In this document: positions 54,411 to 64,000 of the stretch, one piece after another
Layout of the letters: every line of letters begins with the position of its first letter
Position numbering within the stretch: position 1 is the first letter of the stretch
Assembly (NCBI GenBank): GCA_017614715.1
Contig: JAGABI010000024.1
Coordinates: forward strand, 27,999 to 91,998
From: Bacteroidales bacterium
GTDB taxonomy: Bacteria; Bacteroidota; Bacteroidia; Bacteroidales; UBA932
Length of the DNA stretch: 64,000 nucleotides
Reading direction: 5' to 3'
Translations under genes and position numbers: made by a program
The notes under the pieces: model-generated
What the model was told of the DNA's origin: nothing
Database searches by the model: none
What the model saw: only the letters and a program-made list of their open reading frames with translations

Positions 54411-57400
54411 TTACAACCTGTAAGCAACAATTTTTACGGGACCGAGCAATCCGGAGGGCTGGAGAGGACTCTCTGCGCTCCATGGATTAACGGTCATCCA
54501 CACCTTGCGTTCTTTCTCCGGCAGGCGCATATCACCCACGATACGGTTCTGCCAGTTGTTGACCACCTCCACCTCGACGGTGTTGATACCCTTCTTGAGC
54601 GCATCTGTGATGTTTACCCTGAACGGAGCCGTCCATGCGCCGCCCATCTCCTTGCCGTTGACCTTGACCTTGGCCATTACCATAACGTTGCCCAGGTCGA
54701 TATATATATCGGAGTCGGGCAGGTCAGAAAGCTCAAACTGGTTGCGGTACTGCGCCGCCCCGGAATAGTACCTGATACTGTCGTCTGCAGAAGCAGTCCA
54801 GTCAGACAGCGTATCAAAACTGATTTTTCCCTCAGGTCCGCGACGGGCGGTGTCAAAGGTGACCGTCCATCCGGCAGCGAGCTCGCAAAGCTCTGTCTCA
54901 GAGGGGTAATTCTCTTTGTAGCTGCGTCCTTCCGGTTTCTGGTCACAGAATACCACGAAAGAACTCTCCAGATCGCGGAGTTTCAGGAAGACGGTGGTGG
55001 ATGTTCCGTTATCCTCAAACTGAGGCAGGGCGCGGATCTCTCCGGTGAGCGGATTCCACAACTGCGGGGCACGGCCGCTTACGCGGAAGGTTGCGTTGAA
55101 CTCCACTGGGATTGCAGCCTGGTTTGCCACAAAATAGATGTCACCTTTGTCCAAATGGCGGTGGATGAACTTAATCTGGGCGCCGGGATTGTCCTTAACC
55201 AGAAAATCGGGTTCTATCCCCTTCTCTTCAAATACCTTGGCTAGCGATACTCCGTCGGCATAGACTGTGCCGAAGCCATACTGTACTGCCTGGCGCTGGT
55301 TGCTACCCCAGAGTTCGCCAGCAAGACTCTTGACTTTGGCATCGGCATCGGGGTAATTCTTCAGGCTAGGAGAAGCTTCAGGGGCAGGGCCCAGTACAGT
55401 GAGACCGTCGGATACCAGTTGCTTGATCTTGGCAAGTATCTCTGGACGCATCGTCTGCTGGCGCGGCAGCACCAGTACCCCGTAGTTCATGCCGTCGGGG
55501 AGCATCAGGCGGCCGTTCTTCATCCTGGCATCGCGCAAAAGCACCTCCGCATTGATATAGTCAAAAGAATACCCGTCCGGAAGCGCGGGGTCGGTGACAC
55601 CCGTCATCTTGGGGGCGTCTTCGCCAATGAAATATGCGGCATCGGCCACATAAAGGCCCTGCTGGAGCATCAGGTTGCAACGTTTGATATAGCGGCCAAA
55701 GACATCCATATGGCTGAACCAGATGTTCTTGCGGTTGAATTCGTTGCCGAACCATGCGTCCACGCCGGGGTTGCGGTCTTCATACGGCTGCTGGATATAG
55801 AGATGCAGCAGGGTGCTGTTGATGCCCTCTGTAAAGAACCTGTCCAGACGCTGCTTCATTATGCGGGGATAGCGGCTGAACACCGGGCCGCCGCTGGTGC
55901 AGCTCTCCGCCCATACCTTGCGTTTGCCGTAAATGTGCGCACAGGATGATGCGGCGCGGTTTTCTATGTCTCCCAGCGACCCCTCGCTCCAGAATTCGCC
56001 CGCCACCTCGTCGCTCTGGCCGCCGTACATCAGGAACTCTCCGGGGAAGCCCCAGTGGCCGTAGCACTCCAGCCAGGTGCTCAATCCCACCTTGTGGCTG
56101 GCCTCGCGCAGGCCGGCAACATAATCATAGGCAACCCTGTCGGCAATCAGGCGACGCAGGTCCCAGAGGAAACGGTCGCTGATATCACGGTTGCCAACAA
56201 CCTTGCCGCTGAGGGCAGGGAGATAGGGGGTCGGATCGTAACCGTATTTCTCTACAAAACTATCGGCCATATCGTCGGTCCAGTCCATGCCGCCCGTCTC
56301 GTAACTGTCCTCCACCACAACCTTGAAGGTCTTGCGATCGTCTGCCGGGATGCGGCGCAGAATCTCGCCGATAAAGTTATCAAAGTGGTATTGTATGAGC
56401 TCTTTGCTCATCTTGTCAATCTCCAGGCCGGTCCCTTCCGGAGATGCCGGGGCGTTGGTCTGGCCGGTGGTGCGCATGGCAAGGCGGGAGATTGTCCAGC
56501 GACCCTTGGGCGCATCCCAATTGAGCACATCACCGTCCATCTTGTCGGTCAGGTCAATGACCTTGGCCGGGTCTATGCACGATGCCTCGGGGGCCTCGGG
56601 CTGCACGGGCCACATATAGGCATCCCACATAGGCAGCGGTGTCTGGAACATCTTGCCCAGCGTCTTCTCTGCATAGCGCTCAACCATGGCACGGGTGGTG
56701 AGTTCCACATCCAGGATGCCCGCTCCAGGCTCTGCCAGCGACAGGCGGAAGGTTTGCGCGTCGGTCTTGGGCAGCGCCACAACCAGCGGTGCATAAGGGA
56801 GATAGCCCACGTTTACGCTGGGGTTGCTGCGGTCTATGTCAATATCCAGAAGTTTCTGCCAGGAGTCGCCCTCTTTGGCCATCAATTCGCCTCTGGTGAT
56901 TATCGCAGTACCGGCATGGGGAGTGATTACCAGCGACTTATAACTCTCGCCAGACTGACCGTCAAAGATGGTCTCGCTCCGTTCGCCGTTCTGCTTCACC
57001 ACCGTTGCCTTCACGCTGGAGGCTTCAATCGCGGGATAAGCTATCACCTTTACATCTGCCATGGCGTCGGGGGCAACCTTGTCAAGGGTGACCGAGATGC
57101 TGCCTCCGTCGGACTCTATGGTCTTGTCCACACAATCCAGATAACGCATACTCTGCTCAGGTGCGACCCAGGGCCCTCCCGACTGGCTCCAGCCGGGGCA
57201 GTTGAAGATACCTATCTCAATTCCAAGCTCAGAGGCGGTCTTGAGGGCAGTGTGCATCACCTCCCACCACTCGGGGGTAAATATCTTTATTTCACCCCAG
57301 GGGAGGTCGGCTGTAACGTTGCCTATGAACGCCCGGTTGATTCCCACCGACTTCATGGCCTGCAGGTCCTTAACGACGCCCTCCTTGGAGATATTGTCGT

Positions 57401-57617
57401 TTACCCAGTACCAGTACACCGCCAGCTTCATATCGTCCGGCTTCTGGAAACCTTTCTGGATAGTCTTGAAAGATTCGTTGGGGCCGAACGCAGTGGGGTC
57501 ATTGAATTTGGTTATTGAAGATGTGCTGTGGGAACAGCTGGATGCGGTATTTGCCAGGGCAAGTGCGCCCACAGCTAAAGCCGCCGTTACTAAGAACGCG
57601 ATATATGATTGCTTCAT
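54411..57617 (-). CDS. GH106 alpha-L-rhamnosidase, exported
   Basis: 1068-aa secreted glycosidase with a signal (IAFLVTAALAVGALALANTASSC, possible lipobox). The GH106 pattern is clear near the N-terminus: AVYWYWVNDNISKEGVVKDL, PWGEIKIFTPEWWEVMHTAL and GIFNCPGWSQSGGPWV. Further on, VVEDSYETGGMDWTDD and WLECYGHWGFPGEFLMYGG lie in the catalytic domain. A beta-sandwich ends the protein (LPDSDIYIDLGNVMVMAKVKVNGK). Such enzymes remove rhamnose from pectic or other plant polysaccharides. It has no adjacent SusC/SusD pair. Confidence 0.88.
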   Translation of the reverse strand: MKQSYIAFLVTAALAVGALALANTASSCSHSTSSITKFNDPTAFGPNESFKTIQKGFQKPDDMKLAVYWYWVNDNISKEGVVKDLQAMKSVGINRAFIGNVTADLPWGEIKIFTPEWWEVMHTALKTASELGIEIGIFNCPGWSQSGGPWVAPEQSMRYLDCVDKTIESDGGSISVTLDKVAPDAMADVKVIAYPAIEASSVKATVVKQNGERSETIFDGQSGESYKSLVITPHAGTAIITRGELMAKEGDSWQKLLDIDIDRSNPSVNVGYLPYAPLVVALPKTDAQTFRLSLAEPGAGILDVELTTRAMVERYAEKTLGKMFQTPLPMWDAYMWPVQPEAPEASCIDPAKVIDLTDKMDGDVLNWDAPKGRWTISRLAMRTTGQTNAPASPEGTGLEIDKMSKELIQYHFDNFIGEILRRIPADDRKTFKVVVEDSYETGGMDWTDDMADSFVEKYGYDPTPYLPALSGKVVGNRDISDRFLWDLRRLIADRVAYDYVAGLREASHKVGLSTWLECYGHWGFPGEFLMYGGQSDEVAGEFWSEGSLGDIENRAASSCAHIYGKRKVWAESCTSGGPVFSRYPRIMKQRLDRFFTEGINSTLLHLYIQQPYEDRNPGVDAWFGNEFNRKNIWFSHMDVFGRYIKRCNLMLQQGLYVADAAYFIGEDAPKMTGVTDPALPDGYSFDYINAEVLLRDARMKNGRLMLPDGMNYGVLVLPRQQTMRPEILAKIKQLVSDGLTVLGPAPEASPSLKNYPDADAKVKSLAGELWGSNQRQAVQYGFGTVYADGVSLAKVFEEKGIEPDFLVKDNPGAQIKFIHRHLDKGDIYFVANQAAIPVEFNATFRVSGRAPQLWNPLTGEIRALPQFEDNGTSTTVFLKLRDLESSFVVFCDQKPEGRSYKENYPSETELCELAAGWTVTFDTARRGPEGKISFDTLSDWTASADDSIRYYSGAAQYRNQFELSDLPDSDIYIDLGNVMVMAKVKVNGKEMGGAWTAPFRVNITDALKKGINTVEVEVVNNWQNRIVGDMRLPEKERKVWMTVNPWSAESPLQPSGLLGPVKIVAYRL

Positions 57618-57782: not shown

Positions 57783-57875
57783 GCGGAAGTAGTGTAACGG
57801 CAGCACGCAAGCCTTCAGAGCTTGATTCGGGGCAATTCCAATGTCCAGGCGCGGGTTCGACTCCCGTCTTCCGCT
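57783..57875 (+). tRNA. tRNA-like gene, anticodon UCA (UGA-decoding), glycine-type acceptor, long variable arm
   Basis: Cloverleaf read by eye. The acceptor stem GCGGAAG/CTTCCGC is followed by discriminator T, and G1-C72, C2-G71 and U73 are the glycine-type set. The D-arm is GTGTAACGGCAGCAC. The anticodon stem CAAGC/GCTTG has loop CTTCAGA, with U33 and anticodon UCA. A variable arm of about 26 nt contains a GGGC/GTCC stem. The T-arm is GCGGG-TTCGACT-CCCGT. UCA pairs with UGA. A long variable arm is abnormal for tRNA-Gly and recalls tRNA-Sec or allo-tRNAs, but the 7+5 acceptor/T stems are not the tRNA-Sec layout. CCA is not encoded. Charging with glycine is inference from the acceptor and from UGA=Gly in the nearby genes. 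Confidence 0.75.
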
Positions 57876-57883
57876 CTGCCGAT

Positions 57884-57974
57884 GCGGGCATAGTGTAATG
57901 GCAGCACACAGGTTTTCGGGGCCTGATTGCCGGTTTCCACCCCGGTAGAGGAGGTTCGATTCCTCCTGCCCGTG
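57884..57974 (+). tRNA. tRNA-like gene, anticodon UCG (CGA-decoding), long variable arm
   Basis: Nine nt after the first tRNA. Acceptor GCGGGCA/TGCCCGT with G73; D-arm GTGTAATGGCAGCAC; anticodon stem CAGGT/GCCTG with loop TTTCGGG (U33, anticodon UCG). The variable arm is long, with GCCGG/CCGGT closing TTTCCACC. The T-arm is GGAGG-TTCGATT-CCTCC. Normal tRNA-Arg is class I, so a class II tRNA with an arginine anticodon is odd. It is clearly a paralogue of the gene at 62090. The amino acid is unknown. Confidence 0.7.
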
Positions 57975-58094
57975 CGATAATACTGGGGCGCTGCCCCAAA
58001 CCCCGCCGCTTCGCGCTGGCTATTGCGCAGGCTTGCCCGCGCGCGCTACGCTATCGCCTGATGGCGATTGTTACCGGTGACCACGACGTTTGTC

Positions 58095-59123: not shown

Positions 59124-61541
59124 TTACTGTACTGACTTAGTGATTTTTAATTCAATATCTGGCACTTTTCTTCATTGAGTGTCTAATACACATACATCAA
59201 ATTCAGCATCACGGCTTCATCCATATCTAAGCCATGATTCTTTGTTCCAGTACCACTTGATATCGTTATTGGCAACTATAATAATTGATTTGTTGCCTTC
59301 ATTAAATTCATATTTTTTTCATTCGTATTCAAATTGTACTCACTTACCGATGTAACATATTCATGGACCACTGGGTAATTCAACTTCATTTTTATTAAAT
59401 TGTAATTTATCTAGTTTGCTAGATTGTAATAATTCATTTTTTAGCAGTTTCTCCATATCAATAAAGTATCGCTTTCATCAATCTACCAATTCTCAATTTG
59501 TTGTTTCGTCTTTATATTGAAATGTTTCTTCTATAAGATAATTATTATATATTATCGTCATTGCATCTTCTGCTGTAATACCTGGATGACTGGACATAAC
59601 AACATCCACAGCGTTTCACGATATCCCACTAGCTACCGCAGTAGGGAATGAAGCAGTTGTATTATAATCAATACTACCATTCGACATAGTTAATCAAATC
59701 ATCGCCATTAATAAATTTCATTTATCCTTTTCAAATCATGCAGGCATAGCACTTTTTAATCATCAATATGTACCATAATTAGACGAATAATAATTATAAG
59801 ATAACCATGATGCACTATATCCAGTTACAGTAATTTTATTATTCAAATTACTATTAATAGAACATGACTTATATCTATTTCAATTTTTAATATTTTCATT
59901 ATAGACTGTCCAATTTTCACCTCGATTACCATCAGAACAAACAAGCACAACATTAGGTTTTTCTAGTATCCTTCTTTGAACTGCTGTATGTGTATTTTCA
60001 TTAAGTTGCTTCCGAGTATCTCATCATCACGTATCCGCAGCACAACTAATCATAAAGAAATCATTAGGATGTTGGTTTATGTAGTTTTCCAAATTAGTCC
60101 GCGTATCATCATATCACTTTATAGGAACATCTGGACATAATATTCTTATACGATGAGATCATTCAAGTGCATGATCACTTCGATCTGTATATTGTCATAT
60201 ATTTTCTACTCCATTTGCATTTGTAGTTTCTCACATAATAATGTGTACCCTATTAGGTTGCTTAGACCGATTACATGCAGCATATGAAGATAACAAATGT
60301 GGATATATAAAATCCTTCATCGATTGTGGTAAGGTATTGTATCGAGGATATTTTTCATCTATGACATTAGCTGTTTCTATAGTTGGTGCTATATATTCAC
60401 ATCATTTGATAGTTAATGTATCCGACCTAGCTTCTCTAGTTTCTCATGATTTTCATCTAACCGTGAAAATGATATTACATGTTCATGGGTAGCTTGGCGT
60501 ATAGTGATGTGGATCATTTATCTGAGTACGTTGTCCATCCATCTCTATCTCTACTTTGACTAACTCCACTCCATCAGCGAAAGTGATGCCGTTGAGTAGA
60601 TCTACTTCATTATCTACTTGTATATTTAGGTTATTGAGAGTTTCTAATCCATAGATAGTATCATTCGTGATATTGATTTCTACGTTGCTAGATTTTCAGG
60701 ATTCGTCAGTGACCGTGAGAAGTAGCGTTCCAGCCTGATTGATGATATCTCACGATTTGATTTCACTTCCATTTCGTTGAAGTGATACGTTGCAGTCCTC
60801 GGTGCGGTCATCACTTCGTGATGCGATTACTTCATCTCAAAGTATGAGTTGGCTATCTGATATACTGACTGCTATTCATCAGAAAATATTCATTTCAGAA
60901 GCTTTCAGGTCGATTTCTGGAGCATTATTGATTATGTTTAACTGAATATTAACGGAAGAAGATTTTCATTCTCCGTCAGTTACAGTAAGCGTGAGGATAC
61001 CTTCAGCATTTAGAGTATCTCCTGATTTGATTTCATTGCCATCCAATTTGAGAGAAATTGAGCAGTTTTGAGTTTTGTCATCGGACCAGGAAGCGACAGC
61101 TTCATCTCAAATGATTAGTTGATTTCCATCAATAGACACAACTTTTCATTTAGAGACATCTATTTCAGCAGTTGTCAGATCGATTTCAGGAGCGTTATTG
61201 ATTATGTTTACTTTTACTGATGTGGTTTGTGTATTTCCAGCATCATCTGTTACGCTTATCGTGAGCGTTCCGGCTTCGGAGATGGTGTCACCTGATTTAA
61301 CCTCGCGGGTCTCTCATCCTTCAGGGGTGAACGTTACGGTCACTGCGCAACTGGTTGAGACATCATCCCTCCAACTGGCAGCCTTCTGGCCGCCGATGAT
61401 AAGATTGTTGCCGAATACGGTAACCTCCGCACCCGCTATTACATTGAACTGGGTCGATATAACGGTCACCTCTGGAGCTGTAGTGTCCTGCTTCTTGCAG
61501 CCAAACAAGACCATTGCCGCCAGCAACAACACCAGCAGCAT
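59124..61541 (-). CDS. Recoded (UGA=Gly) exported protein: lipoprotein signal, Ig-like repeats, divergent subtilisin-like domain
   Basis: With TGA read as Gly the frame is open for 805 codons, with about 35 TGA and no TAA or TAG until a tandem TAA-TAG end. The N-terminus (MLLVLLLAAMVLFGCKK) is a Bacteroidota-style lipoprotein signal. Three Ig-like repeats follow (about residues 20-280), each with xxLI[IL]G..xASxxDD and ending VTDxxGxxxxxVxI. Where repeat 1 has GGN, repeats 2 and 3 have TGA in several columns (GxxLIIG, KSGD, DDAGN versus DESGK). From about residue 330 there is a divergent subtilase-like domain: NVVLVCSDGNRGENW (AAGN-like) and TTASFPTAVASGISG (serine region), then HPGITAEDAM. 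The first 85 codons are GC-rich and the rest AT-rich. The start could also be ATG 61592. Under the standard code only the N-terminal 75 residues would be made. Confidence 0.75.
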
Positions 61542-61592
61542 ACGGCCCGTCCTGTATGTCTTATCCCTGAAGAAAAGTGTGCGTCAGTACAT

Positions 61593-61880
61593 AATCTTGC
61601 ATAAACTTAAGCGAAAACCCTGCGGATATGCTCGGCACGGATTAAGGATCTGAACCTTGGCGGAACGACGCTCTTTGTGGTGCCCATCGATGGGCGACAG
61701 CCTTGCCGACTTGCCTCCATATCCCTATGGAGCATATTACGGCACACTTTCTATTCCCCGCCCTTGCACTCGCCGTTCCCGAACAGTCCTCTCGTCGCGG
61801 ACGACGCCCTGAACGCCGATAAACGCTAGTCGCCGCCGCCCTCCCCCGGCACATACCCCGGACCTCCGCCCGGTTAAACG
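61593..61880 (-). ncRNA. GC-rich structured leader or non-coding RNA upstream of the recoded gene
   Basis: About 290 nt on the minus strand between a near-consensus promoter and the recoded gene. The strand is markedly GC-rich, with clear hairpins: CGTCG-TCCG-CGACG (61793-61806), CTCCATA-GGGA-TATGGAG (61715-61732) and GCCCAT-CG-ATGGGC (61682-61695). No convincing reading frame is present. It does not match RNase P RNA, tmRNA or SRP RNA as far as I can judge. It may be a regulatory 5' UTR or a separate RNA. The adjoining 61917-62073 holds only short frames that I cannot support. Confidence 0.5.
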
Positions 61881-61884
61881 TTAA

Positions 61885-61916
61885 CAAAGATATGCAATTA
61901 TGATTAGCGACACAAA
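61885..61916 (-). promoter_or_regulatory. Near-consensus Bacteroidota promoter for leader RNA and recoded gene
   Basis: On the minus strand TTTG (61916-61913) is 20 nt before TATCTTTG (61892-61885), matching TTTG-N20-TAnnTTTG. Transcription would begin near 61878 and run through the structured leader into the UGA=Gly gene. This is the best promoter in the window. Confidence 0.75.
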
Positions 61917-62089: not shown

Positions 62090-62180
62090 GAGGGCATAGT
62101 GTAACGGAAGCACACAGGCTCCCGGGGCCTGATCGCCGGTTTCCACCCCGGCAGAAGAGGTTCGACTCCTCTTGCCCTTG
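62090..62180 (+). tRNA. tRNA-like gene, anticodon CCG (CGG-decoding), long variable arm
   Basis: Acceptor GAGGGCA/TGCCCTT with G73; D-arm GTGTAACGGAAGCAC; anticodon stem CAGGC/GCCTG with loop TCCCGGG. This gives anticodon CCG but C instead of U at position 33. The variable arm GCCGG-TTTCCACC-CCGGC is nearly identical to that of the gene at 57884. The T-arm is AGAGG-TTCGACT-CCTCT. The loop is self-complementary (CCCGGG) and lacks U33, so function is less certain than for the other two. It may be a diverging duplicate. Confidence 0.6.
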
Positions 62181-62261
62181 CTATTGTATTGACATATACA
62201 CTTTCGGAATTATTTAATTATTGTGTATATTTACGAATGAATTAATAAAAATATTTCCCCA

Positions 62262-62519
62262 ATGATTAAACCAAAAGAAATATCAGCCATTAAAAATGGC
62301 AAATTAAATGCAGACTATTTATTGGATAATTATCCGATAAAAACACTCGTTGAGGATTTGGTTGAAATAATACGTAAATCAGAAACGCCTGGAGTAGCCA
62401 AGCCAATACCTATTTCAAGGGAAGATCTCGATAGAATTAATGGCCTGTTTCGTATTATTGGATATGAATCCAACGGGCAACCCACAAAAAGAGGCCGGAA
62501 AAAGATATCTGAAAAATAA
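62262..62519 (+). CDS. Small protein of unknown function
   Basis: 85 aa from ATG 62262 to TAA, AT-rich but readable in the standard code. The sequence is helical and charged (IKPKEISAIKNGKLNADYLLDNY, SREDLDRINGLFRIIGYESNG), with a basic end (KRGRKKISEK) that could bind nucleic acid. I do not recognise a family. It follows the CCG tRNA-like gene by 81 nt and ends in a terminator shared with the second recoded gene. Confidence 0.6.
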   Translation: MIKPKEISAIKNGKLNADYLLDNYPIKTLVEDLVEIIRKSETPGVAKPIPISREDLDRINGLFRIIGYESNGQPTKRGRKKISEK

Positions 62520-62520
62520 A

Positions 62521-62556
62521 GAAATCGCTATTCGATTTGAATAGCGATTTCTTTTT
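62521..62556. terminator. Bidirectional terminator overlapping the end of the second recoded gene
   Basis: GAAATCGCTATTC (62521-62533) pairs with GAATAGCGATTTC (62539-62551), followed by TTTTT on plus and by T-rich sequence on minus. On the minus strand the stem also encodes the last residues EIAIQIE and the TAG stop of the recoded gene. Coding and termination are thus folded into one element. Confidence 0.8.
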
Positions 62557-64000
62557 CCATGCTGAGACCGTTCCACTGGTCGTCGACGGCGAGCATTTTG
62601 CCAAGGATTGTCTGGCCGAACGAGTATCCGTATTTGCGGAGGATCTCTCCATTTATCCTCCACTCCAAGTTCATAGGATTCTGAGATTTAATTAAGGATG
62701 CATTTTCTTGGTTGTACGGTATCCACTCTCAGTTAATTTTGGCTTCAGCTCATGGGATTGCGAATATTACTCATTTATAGTATCATTTATTGAGGGAGAT
62801 AGTTTGTCATGGTTGAATAGGTGTTGGTAGGTCCTCAGGCATGAGATATTTTTTGAAAAATCAGGCTGGATTGATGAGTTGGAGTTCTTGAGTGTCTCAA
62901 TTAAATCTTATATAATCTGTGAGAGCGGTAGATCTAACCATTTCCAGTAGTTGGTCAACATCTTCAACTTCAGCAAACATCTGGAAGCACAAATCCATTA
63001 TGGCTACATTGAAGTAATTGCTAAGTGATGTTGAATATTTTCAATTATTTCTATATCCTTCTGCATAAATTTCATCTGTTGTGTATAAATGTGTGGGGAA
63101 TGTACGTCCTGAGAATAGTACGTTGTTTGCAAATCATATTGGGTATTTGCTGCTTTCGGCTGCTTCATTTGTTTGGTCTATATCTCAGTCGGCTTCTGTA
63201 GCTATTGTTACTAATAGGTGTATATTTGGTTGTGTGTTTTTATCTGAATTACTAAGTGAGGCTAAAGAATATCGTCCATGTTCATCTGCTTCGTATTCTC
63301 AATTGTAAATTTTGTTTCTAAGACTTCAATTATGGGTTTCAAGATTTGTTCATGCAGCAAATATAATGAAGTTTTTTGATTTACATAAATCTATTATGTC
63401 TTTTTTAAGCAGTGTGTTTTCGTAAGATGTTTTATTACTTGCTGCAGAATATGTAGAACTTCAAAATATGTTAATTGTGCTTGGGTTGTCTTTTATGTAA
63501 TCACTCATGGTTTCTTGTCGAGATTTTTCGAAATCTCACAATAATAGTTTAAAGTTGGTATGATTTACTAATTTATTTAAAATGTAATATTCTGTGTGGG
63601 CATGTTCATTTGGTTTTAAATATCATTGAATGCCCATCATTTCATAGTTGCTAAATCATGTGGGTATTTCTCATCTCATCCCAGTATTGAGTCTACTCAT
63701 CAATTGTTGATATTCTTCCTTTGAATGAGGGCCAGCACCATATTCTCGCATCATGTCTCTAATCTTAGTAGCTTCAGCTACCCTGAGATGTTCTATATGT
63801 TCATAGGCGTTTTTATCTCCATATTCTACTTGTCATATAATAGGTAGTATATCTACTGGTTTAATATTAGTTATTTCTGGGGCTTTATATTCTAGTGGTT
63901 TGATAGTCAAAGCATCCGATCTAACTTCTCTAGTCTCTCATGATTTTAATTTTATCGTGAAAATGATATTAAATGTTCATGGGTATTCTGGTGTATAATT
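62528..64000 (-). CDS. Second recoded (UGA=Gly) protein with subtilisin-like domain, C-terminal 490 residues (5' end outside window)
   Basis: Open across 490 codons with 21 TGA and no TAA or TAG until the TAG at 62528. The N-terminal visible part (TPEYPGTFNIIFT, KSGETREVRSDALTIK) matches the first recoded protein, with TGA at the same two Gly positions. A divergent subtilase-like domain follows: NEHAHTEYYILNKL (possible His), KNFIIFAAGTNLETHNGSL (typical AAGN strand), HLLVTIATEADGD and GKYSTSLSNYFNVAIM (possible Ser). The C-terminal 45 codons (MNLEWRINGEILRKYGYSFGQ onward) switch to GC-rich, host-like codons. Under the standard code it would be broken everywhere. It is a paralogue of 59124-61541 with a different C-terminus. 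Confidence 0.72.

Follow-up and report, generated by a model that had tools for sequence, protein, structure and literature searches.

To our knowledge, the alternative genetic codes described in cells are genome-wide, and the gene-specific recoding known to us in bacteria concerns selenocysteine and pyrrolysine. Selenocysteine insertion uses tRNA-Sec, SelB and SECIS elements, code switching in viruses is tied to the names of the crAss-like and Lak phages, and the long-armed allo-tRNAs have 8/4 or 9/3 acceptor branches. In Absconditabacteria, UGA is read as glycine and CGA/CGG as tryptophan, according to the sections of Shulgina and Eddy drawn on here (PMC8629427). The window analyzed in the present study, a whole stretch of 64,000 nucleotides from contig C68 of a Bacteroidales genome (G000), contains lipoprotein genes with many in-frame UGA codons, adjoined by a cassette of tRNAs and an RNase III-like gene. 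The sequence suggests a gene-restricted second genetic code in a standard-code Bacteroidales genome (estimated probability approximately 0.8), with cassette tRNAs that are likely used only on mRNAs carrying a common leader. The parts that can be read from the sequence are the recoded genes, the tRNAs with their identity elements, the RNase III-like gene behind them, a covarying leader, an early UGA, standard stops and the linkage of these parts.

The preliminary description of this DNA reported a frame of 805 codons on the minus strand (59124..61541) with 35 in-frame TGA codons, no internal TAA or TAG and a TAA-TAG end, and this frame is reproduced here. The start lies upstream of 61541, at 61592 (ATG TAC TGA CGC), by which a 36th TGA is gained at codon 3. 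In 1000 dinucleotide-preserving shuffles of 59124-61592 in 300-nt blocks, the in-frame TAA plus TAG count has a mean of 36.6 and a minimum of 21, compared with 0 internal in the real gene, and the in-frame TGA count is ordinary against the same shuffles (mean 27.9, maximum 44). The columns of the immunoglobulin-like (Ig-like) repeats in which GGC, GGT, GGT and GGA were said to face TGA bear out that account in most places; another column of the repeats reads W/W/CGA.

The window gene is a member of a Bacteroidales family of recoded lipoprotein genes, and a third such gene of the same genome lies on contig C24. The masked alignment of the family comprises 22 genes, of which 2 are standard and 20 are recoded. 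The recoded genes, which were picked as frames open to TAA/TAG so that the absence of these two codons holds by construction, together contain 12,310 codons with 334 TGA, 49 CGA and 8 CGG. When the genes are read with the second code, the nonsynonymous (dN) and synonymous (dS) divergences are 0.136 and 0.739 for the paralogues L102a/b and 0.214 and 0.807 for L104a/b, and both pairs show purifying selection. A Pfam search with the window protein returned sub-threshold matches only, and among five further recoded proteins four have no Pfam match at E 0.01 and one has a weak match to DivIC; the family profile has no match among solved structures, and PADLOC gave no match for the two proteins tested. 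The recoded protein reads by eye as possibly similar to subtilisin-type S8 domains. The end of the window coincides with the end of contig C68 (position 91,998), inside the second recoded gene, and contig ends repeatedly fall inside such genes (the window contig, G000:C24, G417:C2, G426:C198 and G378:C20). These breaks suggest multicopy repeats, and the recoded genes are probably under-assembled in metagenome-assembled genomes (MAGs).

Codon meaning was assessed at strict sites, at which one residue occurs in at least 80% of at least four locally similar comparisons, using 15 database proteins (14 of normal content and P0011) and, from the other genes, those codons that are unambiguous. TGA, counted only in recoded genes, falls on glycine columns at 79 of 83 strict sites, and CGA falls on tryptophan columns at 4 of 4; the control codons fall on arginine columns (AGA 35/38, AGG 15/16, CGT 11/13 and CGC 1/2). 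Site-majority counts at a local identity of at least 0.5 give glycine for TGA at 121.5/174, and CGG, at 6 such sites, shows no clear residue. In a second comparison, 14 of 17 database proteins with normal glycine and tryptophan content were retained and 3 were dropped as likely mistranslated. TGA then corresponds to glycine at 122.1/156, similar to GGT (63.5/84), and the four CGA sites that correspond to tryptophan are all-Trp columns in g2, L102a, L102b and L104b. A BLOSUM sum for CGA ranks Tyr, Trp and Phe first, which is weaker evidence than the site counts. The earlier proposal that UGA is translated as glycine is thus strongly supported by the alignments; CGA likely means tryptophan in the recoded genes, and CGG perhaps does as well.

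The tRNAs that adjoin these genes have anticodons UCA, UCG and CCG (Table 1). The published glycine rule for tRNA-UCA is G1:C72, C2:G71, G3:C70 and U73, and the provisional tryptophan rule for tRNAs reading CGA/CGG is G73 without A20, with A/G1:U72 as supportive, in the sections of PMC8629427 consulted; the UCG tRNA of the window fits the latter. The acceptor stem of the window UCA tRNA is identical in sequence to that of the genome's own tRNA-Gly(UCC). In 24 sequences, ARAGORN found 43 such tRNAs (20 UCA, 18 UCG and 5 CCG) and missed the UCG tRNA of L100. The glycine rule is followed by 18 of the 20 UCA tRNAs as printed and by the other 2 once an 8-bp acceptor is shifted to the 7-bp register, and G73 and A/G1:U72 are present in 18/18 UCG and 5/5 CCG tRNAs. 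Residue 20 is C or T in 18/18 UCG tRNAs and A in 2 CCG tRNAs, both of this genome, and an identical copy of the window CCG tRNA lies on contig C24. All 43 tRNAs have variable regions of 22-26 nt with UCCA. As folded by ARAGORN, the window tRNAs have a 7-bp acceptor and a 5-bp T stem, not the 8/4 or 9/3 branch of allo-tRNAs, and in two UCA tRNAs from other loci an eighth acceptor pair could form. The cassette tRNAs resemble allo-tRNAs and selC-like tRNA-Cys in being rare and long-armed with UCA or unusual anticodons; these, as described in the consulted parts of PMC7609411, have longer acceptor stems and Ser, Ala or Cys identity, whereas the window tRNAs are 7/5 and of Gly or Trp type.

ARAGORN labels the window UCA tRNA "SeC", and its 4-bp D stem and glycine identity indicate that it is not of the Sec type. 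No match to selA was found in the genome (of 14 control genomes, 4 matched, 1 of them over the cut-off), and with neither selA nor a Sec-type tRNA the selenocysteine reading was rejected. The system is nevertheless similar to selenocysteine insertion in that UGA is sense on chosen mRNAs, a long-armed UCA tRNA is present and the recoded mRNAs carry a cis RNA element, the role of which is predicted. Unlike selenocysteine insertion, it involves standard amino acids, many UGA codons per gene, a sense codon that is changed as well and an element at the 5' end.

The open reading frame (ORF) behind the UCA and UCG tRNAs matches PF14622 (E 1.6e-6, below the curated cut-off) and contains a hint of a double-stranded RNA-binding domain (dsRBD). 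An AlphaFold model of the protein (mean pLDDT 75, pTM 0.39) matches 5t16, 1o0w and 7qh7_c at E ~1e-6 with TM-scores of 0.25-0.38. These are RNase III enzymes and mitoribosomal chains, and the model is consistent with an RNase III fold with a dsRBD. The mitoribosomal chains are presumably mL44, a non-catalytic relative of RNase III. Relative to RNase III 3n3w (weak match, E 0.076), the catalytic signature NERLEFLGD is changed to NSRYVFAGM, and the protein appears inactive, as the catalytic acidic residues seem to be lost. It thus resembles RNase III and mL44 in its fold and dsRBD and differs in its signature and its long C-terminal helix.

This gene occupies the same position in L087, L089 and L090 at 72-74% identity. 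Among 17 database loci that encode RNase III-like relatives, the UCA tRNA lies just upstream in 15, and 13 of these 15 also have the UCG tRNA, with the UCA tRNA alone in L099 and L109. L107 starts inside the UCG tRNA at its contig end. In L100, a UCG tRNA (127-224, +; 80 bits) has a 5' acceptor strand unlike that of the other copies and may be a decayed copy or an assembly error. The 17 loci lie in MAGs labelled Bacteroidales, Bacteroidia, Prevotella, Prevotellaceae, Muribaculaceae or uncultured bacterium, and 7 of them are labelled with a ruminant (names include goat, yak, water buffalo and red deer). The carriers thus include ruminant gut bacteria. A metagenomic protein search yielded at least 289 relatives. 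An abiF RNA (Rfam RF03085, 58 bits; L105:3874-3910, -) was observed ~1.3 kb from the tRNA cluster of its locus.

An alignment of 14 leader sequences contains 45 pairs, 23 of which have two-sided changes that are kept paired, and Rfam has no family for this leader. The covariance model, which was trained on these 14 sequences and covers the core only, has 18 matches in 39 loci, every match (3 are duplicate records) being at a locus with UGA-containing genes. In 398 genomes of the family, 7 matches are found in 5 genomes (G000, G181, G378, G417 and G426), all of which have UGA-containing homologues; judging from length and coordinates, L095, L096, L097 and L111 represent contigs identical to those of the G378, G426, G417 and G459 loci, respectively. 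The leader of L111/G459, which lies outside the training set, reaches 80 bits, and the UGA gene downstream of it carries UGA at codon 4. Behind each of the 16 distinct leaders, an AUG begins an open frame in which UGA stands at codon 3 (12 cases), 4 (2) or 5 (2). The AUG is located 80-105 nt past the leader core in 14 of the 16, 165 nt past it in L085 and 351 nt past it in L168, where just 29 codons are visible after the leader. The promoter-like element TAnnTTTG, which resembles the Bacteroidota -7 motif, precedes 13 of the 16 leaders. The proteins of L103, L106 and L111 appear by eye unrelated to the lipoprotein family and have no confident Pfam match, and the different-looking proteins of L103 and L106 share the same leader and UGA use. 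In L087/L097, L100 and L105, which have no leader match, the 5' end of the recoded gene is at or near the contig end, and in L101 and L107 neither a leader match nor a clear recoded gene was seen.

Genes in which few further UGA codons are seen still have one at codon 3 (L099c and the partial genes of L089 and L108). The gene L099c (L099:15458-17824, -) has the leader and the codon-3 UGA, yet just 5 TGA codons and a GC content of 0.48; its body appears to have nearly returned to the standard code while the early UGA was kept. A pairing of UGGAAA in the leader with UUUCCA in the tRNA arm was considered and is not claimed, as it is not conserved and the window reads UAGAAA.

The host code is standard, and the standard-code Bacteroidota setting assumed in the preliminary description holds. 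The 25 ORFs of the window that reach 250 codons (24 started by ATG and the RNase III-like ORF; ORFs rather than curated genes) end in TAA (13), TGA (7) or TAG (5) and contain 82 CGG and 20 CGA codons, with the native meaning of both taken as arginine by assumption. The genome encodes release factor 2 (RF2; prfB, 471 bits, over the curated cut-off), and its native tRNAs include tRNA-Arg with ACG, CCG and CCT and tRNA-Gly with UCC and CCC; the genome is incomplete, and the tRNAs read from it do not include a native tRNA-Trp. A genome-wide reassignment without RF2 is thus not what is seen here, given prfB and the 7 of 25 ORFs that end in TGA. An alpha-L-rhamnosidase gene (GH106, Pfam 713 bits) adjoins the cassette, which places it in an ordinary chromosomal setting, and the window is ~55% GC overall. 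In the consulted sections of PMC8629427, the Absconditabacteria/Gracilibacteria code (table 25) is alike in UGA = Gly with tRNA(UCA), in CGA as Trp (likely so in the cassette code) and in the tRNA identity rules, but it is genome-wide in AT-rich, host-dependent cells, whereas the cassette code concerns a few genes of a ~55% GC genome; the class-II shape of the cassette tRNAs is a further difference from that case.

Table 1. Features of the second-code locus and its surroundings in the window
Feature	Coordinates	Strand	Remarks
Alpha-L-rhamnosidase gene	54411-57617	-	GH106; adjoins the cassette
tRNA, anticodon UCA (reads UGA)	57783..57876	+	G1:C72, C2:G71, G3:C70, U73 = glycine identity rule; long variable arm
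tRNA, anticodon UCG (reads CGA)	57884..57975	+	G1:U72, G73, N20 not A; long variable arm
RNase III-like + dsRNA-binding protein, long C-terminal helix	58068..59093	+	341-codon ORF; active-site acids apparently missing
Recoded lipoprotein gene (Ig-like repeats + C-terminal domain)	59124..61592	-	36 in-frame TGA, first at codon 3
Structured RNA leader 5' of the recoded gene	61593..61884	-	model core 61678-61835; outer limits approximate
Promoter-like TAnnTTTG (TATCTTTG)	61885..61892	-	57 nt before leader core
tRNA, anticodon CCG (reads CGG)	62090..62181	+	G1:U72, G73, A20, C33; long variable arm
Small ORF	~62260-62519	+	~85 aa, ending ...RGRKKISEK; between CCG tRNA and second recoded gene
Second recoded lipoprotein gene	62528..64000	-	21 in-frame TGA; GC-rich 3' end; 5' part lost at contig end

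The cassette is patchily distributed. Its tRNAs are present in 6 of 11 further genomes tested (G181, G351, G459, G152, G744 and G542) and were not found in 5, including G341 and G281, both of which have long standard-code homologues. The RNase III-like gene occurs in 8 of the 398 family genomes, weak and partial matches included, and a diverged form with 38-41% identity is present in L143 (G744) and in L156 and L160 (G152). The tRNA sets observed are UCA/UCG in L143 and L156, the same with CCG in L160, UCG alone in L144 (G542) and UCA alone in L157 (G351); G152, G744, G542 and G351 possibly hold an older or different form of the system. In a sample of 393 genomes of the order, the tRNA model matches 65 at E 0.001, with scores above 40 bits in just G000, G459, G744 and G542 and of at most 34.2 bits for the remainder. 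A DNA search of 99 genomes with the UCA-UCG pair recovered the whole pair in G000 alone and short pieces elsewhere.

In the proposed mechanism, native glycyl-tRNA synthetase would charge tRNA(UCA) and tryptophanyl-tRNA synthetase would charge tRNA(UCG/CCG), and with the cassette tRNAs UGA would be read as glycine and CGA, perhaps also CGG, as tryptophan. The early UGA may act as a gate, as translation in a cell without the cassette would stop after a few codons, and a UGA at codon 3 would tie expression to the cassette also in genes that show few further UGA codons. Confinement of the tRNAs to tagged mRNAs is predicted to be a joint effect of the leader, the long arms and the RNase III-like RNA-binding protein; it is proposed because free tRNAs would read through UGA stops and misread native CGG and CGA codons.

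Several observations weigh against this reading or parts of it. No leader was detected in G152, G351, G744 and G542 despite their tRNAs, and L109 has a UGA-containing frame but no leader match. The search for the RNase III-like gene had no match in G181, a genome with leaders, a UGA gene and one cassette-type tRNA. In L100, the 126 bases that precede the UCG tRNA contain no tRNA of the UCA type. An earlier in-frame AUG is present in 7 of the 16 leader loci, so the codon number of the UGA hinges on the choice of start: the earlier AUG lies two codons upstream in L095, L096 and L098 and puts the first UGA at codon 17-27 in L110, L102, L106 and L108. For CGA, the 4 strict sites occupy just two columns, spread over three loci, and so do not represent four separate events. 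The looser counts are mixed: the site-majority count at a local identity of at least 0.5 gives tryptophan at 10.5/22, and the 14 database proteins give it at 4/13. CGG has 0 strict sites. One CGA of L099c matches Arg in 14/14 database relatives (V or R among the recoded genes), and one CGG of L099a matches Arg in 6/6. C33 and A20 in the window CCG tRNA are odd for a working tRNA-Trp.

Recoding may also occur without insulation. The tRNAs would then be weak suppressors on every mRNA, with read-through and Arg-to-Trp errors tolerated, and the leader would be an ordinary regulatory 5' untranslated region. The four genomes that keep tRNAs without a detectable leader speak for this, as do a promoter-like TAnnTTTG seen by eye directly before the tRNA cluster and the second stop that directly follows 2 of the 7 TGA stops. 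However, CGG is a common native codon and TGA a frequent native stop in the window, and the leader recurs in conserved form on different recoded genes, with none on the two standard-code homologues. Among 12 genomes searched for the leader it was found in G459 alone, G341 and G281 being among those without it. We consider recoding without insulation unlikely.

A second alternative, which we regard as doubtful, retains UGA = Gly as the only true reassignment and has the UCG/CCG tRNAs charged with serine or arginine. C35/G36 suits arginyl-tRNA synthetase, and the A20 of the window CCG tRNA and the Arg columns in L099 are in line with this alternative. G73 with a long variable arm, which is also a serine identity and so counts against tryptophan, suits seryl-tRNA synthetase (PMC7609411, parts consulted). 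Serine is nevertheless rare at CGA sites, CGA falls in Trp columns of G000, L102 and L104, and residue 20 is never A in the 18 UCG tRNAs. L099 carries the UCA tRNA without a UCG tRNA, so a CGA on an Arg column fits there; on such tiny numbers, these sites may be a natural exception, or CGA may not always be tryptophan.

The origin of the gene bodies bears on a third alternative. The GC content drops from ~0.55-0.60 to 0.34 at 59.1 kb of the window, and most recoded genes have GC-rich ends and an AT-rich, TGA-dense middle, the densest 200 codons having a GC content of 0.28-0.39 in 17 of the 20. Of the 36 closest database proteins, 26 have at least 4.5% Trp and at most 4.4% Gly, with Trp, in those inspected, where the recoded genes have TGA, on contigs of up to 62.7 kb. 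Such a composition fits organisms with UGA = Gly whose proteins were predicted as if UGA meant Trp, and these relatives may be Absconditabacteria. Some of the 36 resemble Bacteroidota recoded genes by eye (P0012 and P0027, for example); standard-code relatives include L091, L086 and 14 of P0159-P0175. A gene-body tree with G, W and R masked, whose support is too low for transfers to be dated or given a direction, does not set the four recoded genes included apart from the closest database proteins. The earlier suggestion of a transfer from an Absconditabacteria/Gracilibacteria-like lineage is plausible for the AT-rich middles only, while the 5' and 3' ends, the leader, the promoter-like element and the tRNAs look Bacteroidota-native.

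The AT-rich bodies, the apparently mistranslated relatives and a weakly supported tree in which the recoded genes are not one clade could also be explained if the genes were silent foreign passengers from Absconditabacteria/Gracilibacteria, with UGA as a relic and nothing translated. This is improbable, as dedicated tRNAs adjoin the recoded genes, UGA persists at codon 3 and in GC-rich parts that look native, and the paralogue pairs are under purifying selection.

An explanation by a phage or plasmid element that has a code of its own is very improbable. The patchy spread and the low count of the RNase III-like gene in the family would suit a mobile element, but that protein has no match in phages, plasmids or IMG/VR, and neither the one tRNA pattern nor the one leader pattern searched has a match in IMG/VR, so a location in a viral genome is not indicated. 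In the consulted parts of PMC10746230, phage code switching is similar in that a stop is decoded in a standard-code cell by an element-encoded suppressor tRNA; it is viral and concerns UAG = Gln or UGA = Trp, whereas the present system is chromosomal, with UGA = Gly and CGA, a leader and an RNase III-like protein. An assembly or binning chimera of a Bacteroidota and an Absconditabacteria genome, offered earlier on and suggested by the sharp GC change at 59.1 kb and by the contig ends inside such genes, is excluded for practical purposes by the same architecture in many independent MAGs of several projects, by in-frame junctions, by UGA within GC-rich segments and by the UCA tRNA with the acceptor stem of a native tRNA-Gly.

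A new case of recoding, the remaining origin named in the preliminary description, is strongly supported, in a form that was not foreseen: it is gene-restricted, with CGA likely as Trp, adjoining tRNAs and a shared leader. In the open-licence literature, no report of UGA = Gly in Bacteroidota or of a leader-marked second code was found among the titles and abstract openings of the matches listed. In its fullest version, for which the odds are about even, two codes would operate at once, with most mRNAs read by the standard code and leader-marked mRNAs by one in which UGA means Gly and CGA/CGG mean Trp. Together with long-armed tRNAs and a dead RNase III-like adaptor, the leader would form an insulated decoding channel, locked by the codon-3 UGA, that would serve to express genes shared with UGA = Gly candidate-phylum neighbours. 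If this is true, a stop codon and a sense codon can be re-read gene by gene, and codes can thus coexist in one cytoplasm. This would offer a stepwise route to codon reassignment, explain the passage of genes across a genetic-code barrier and constitute a natural orthogonal translation module.

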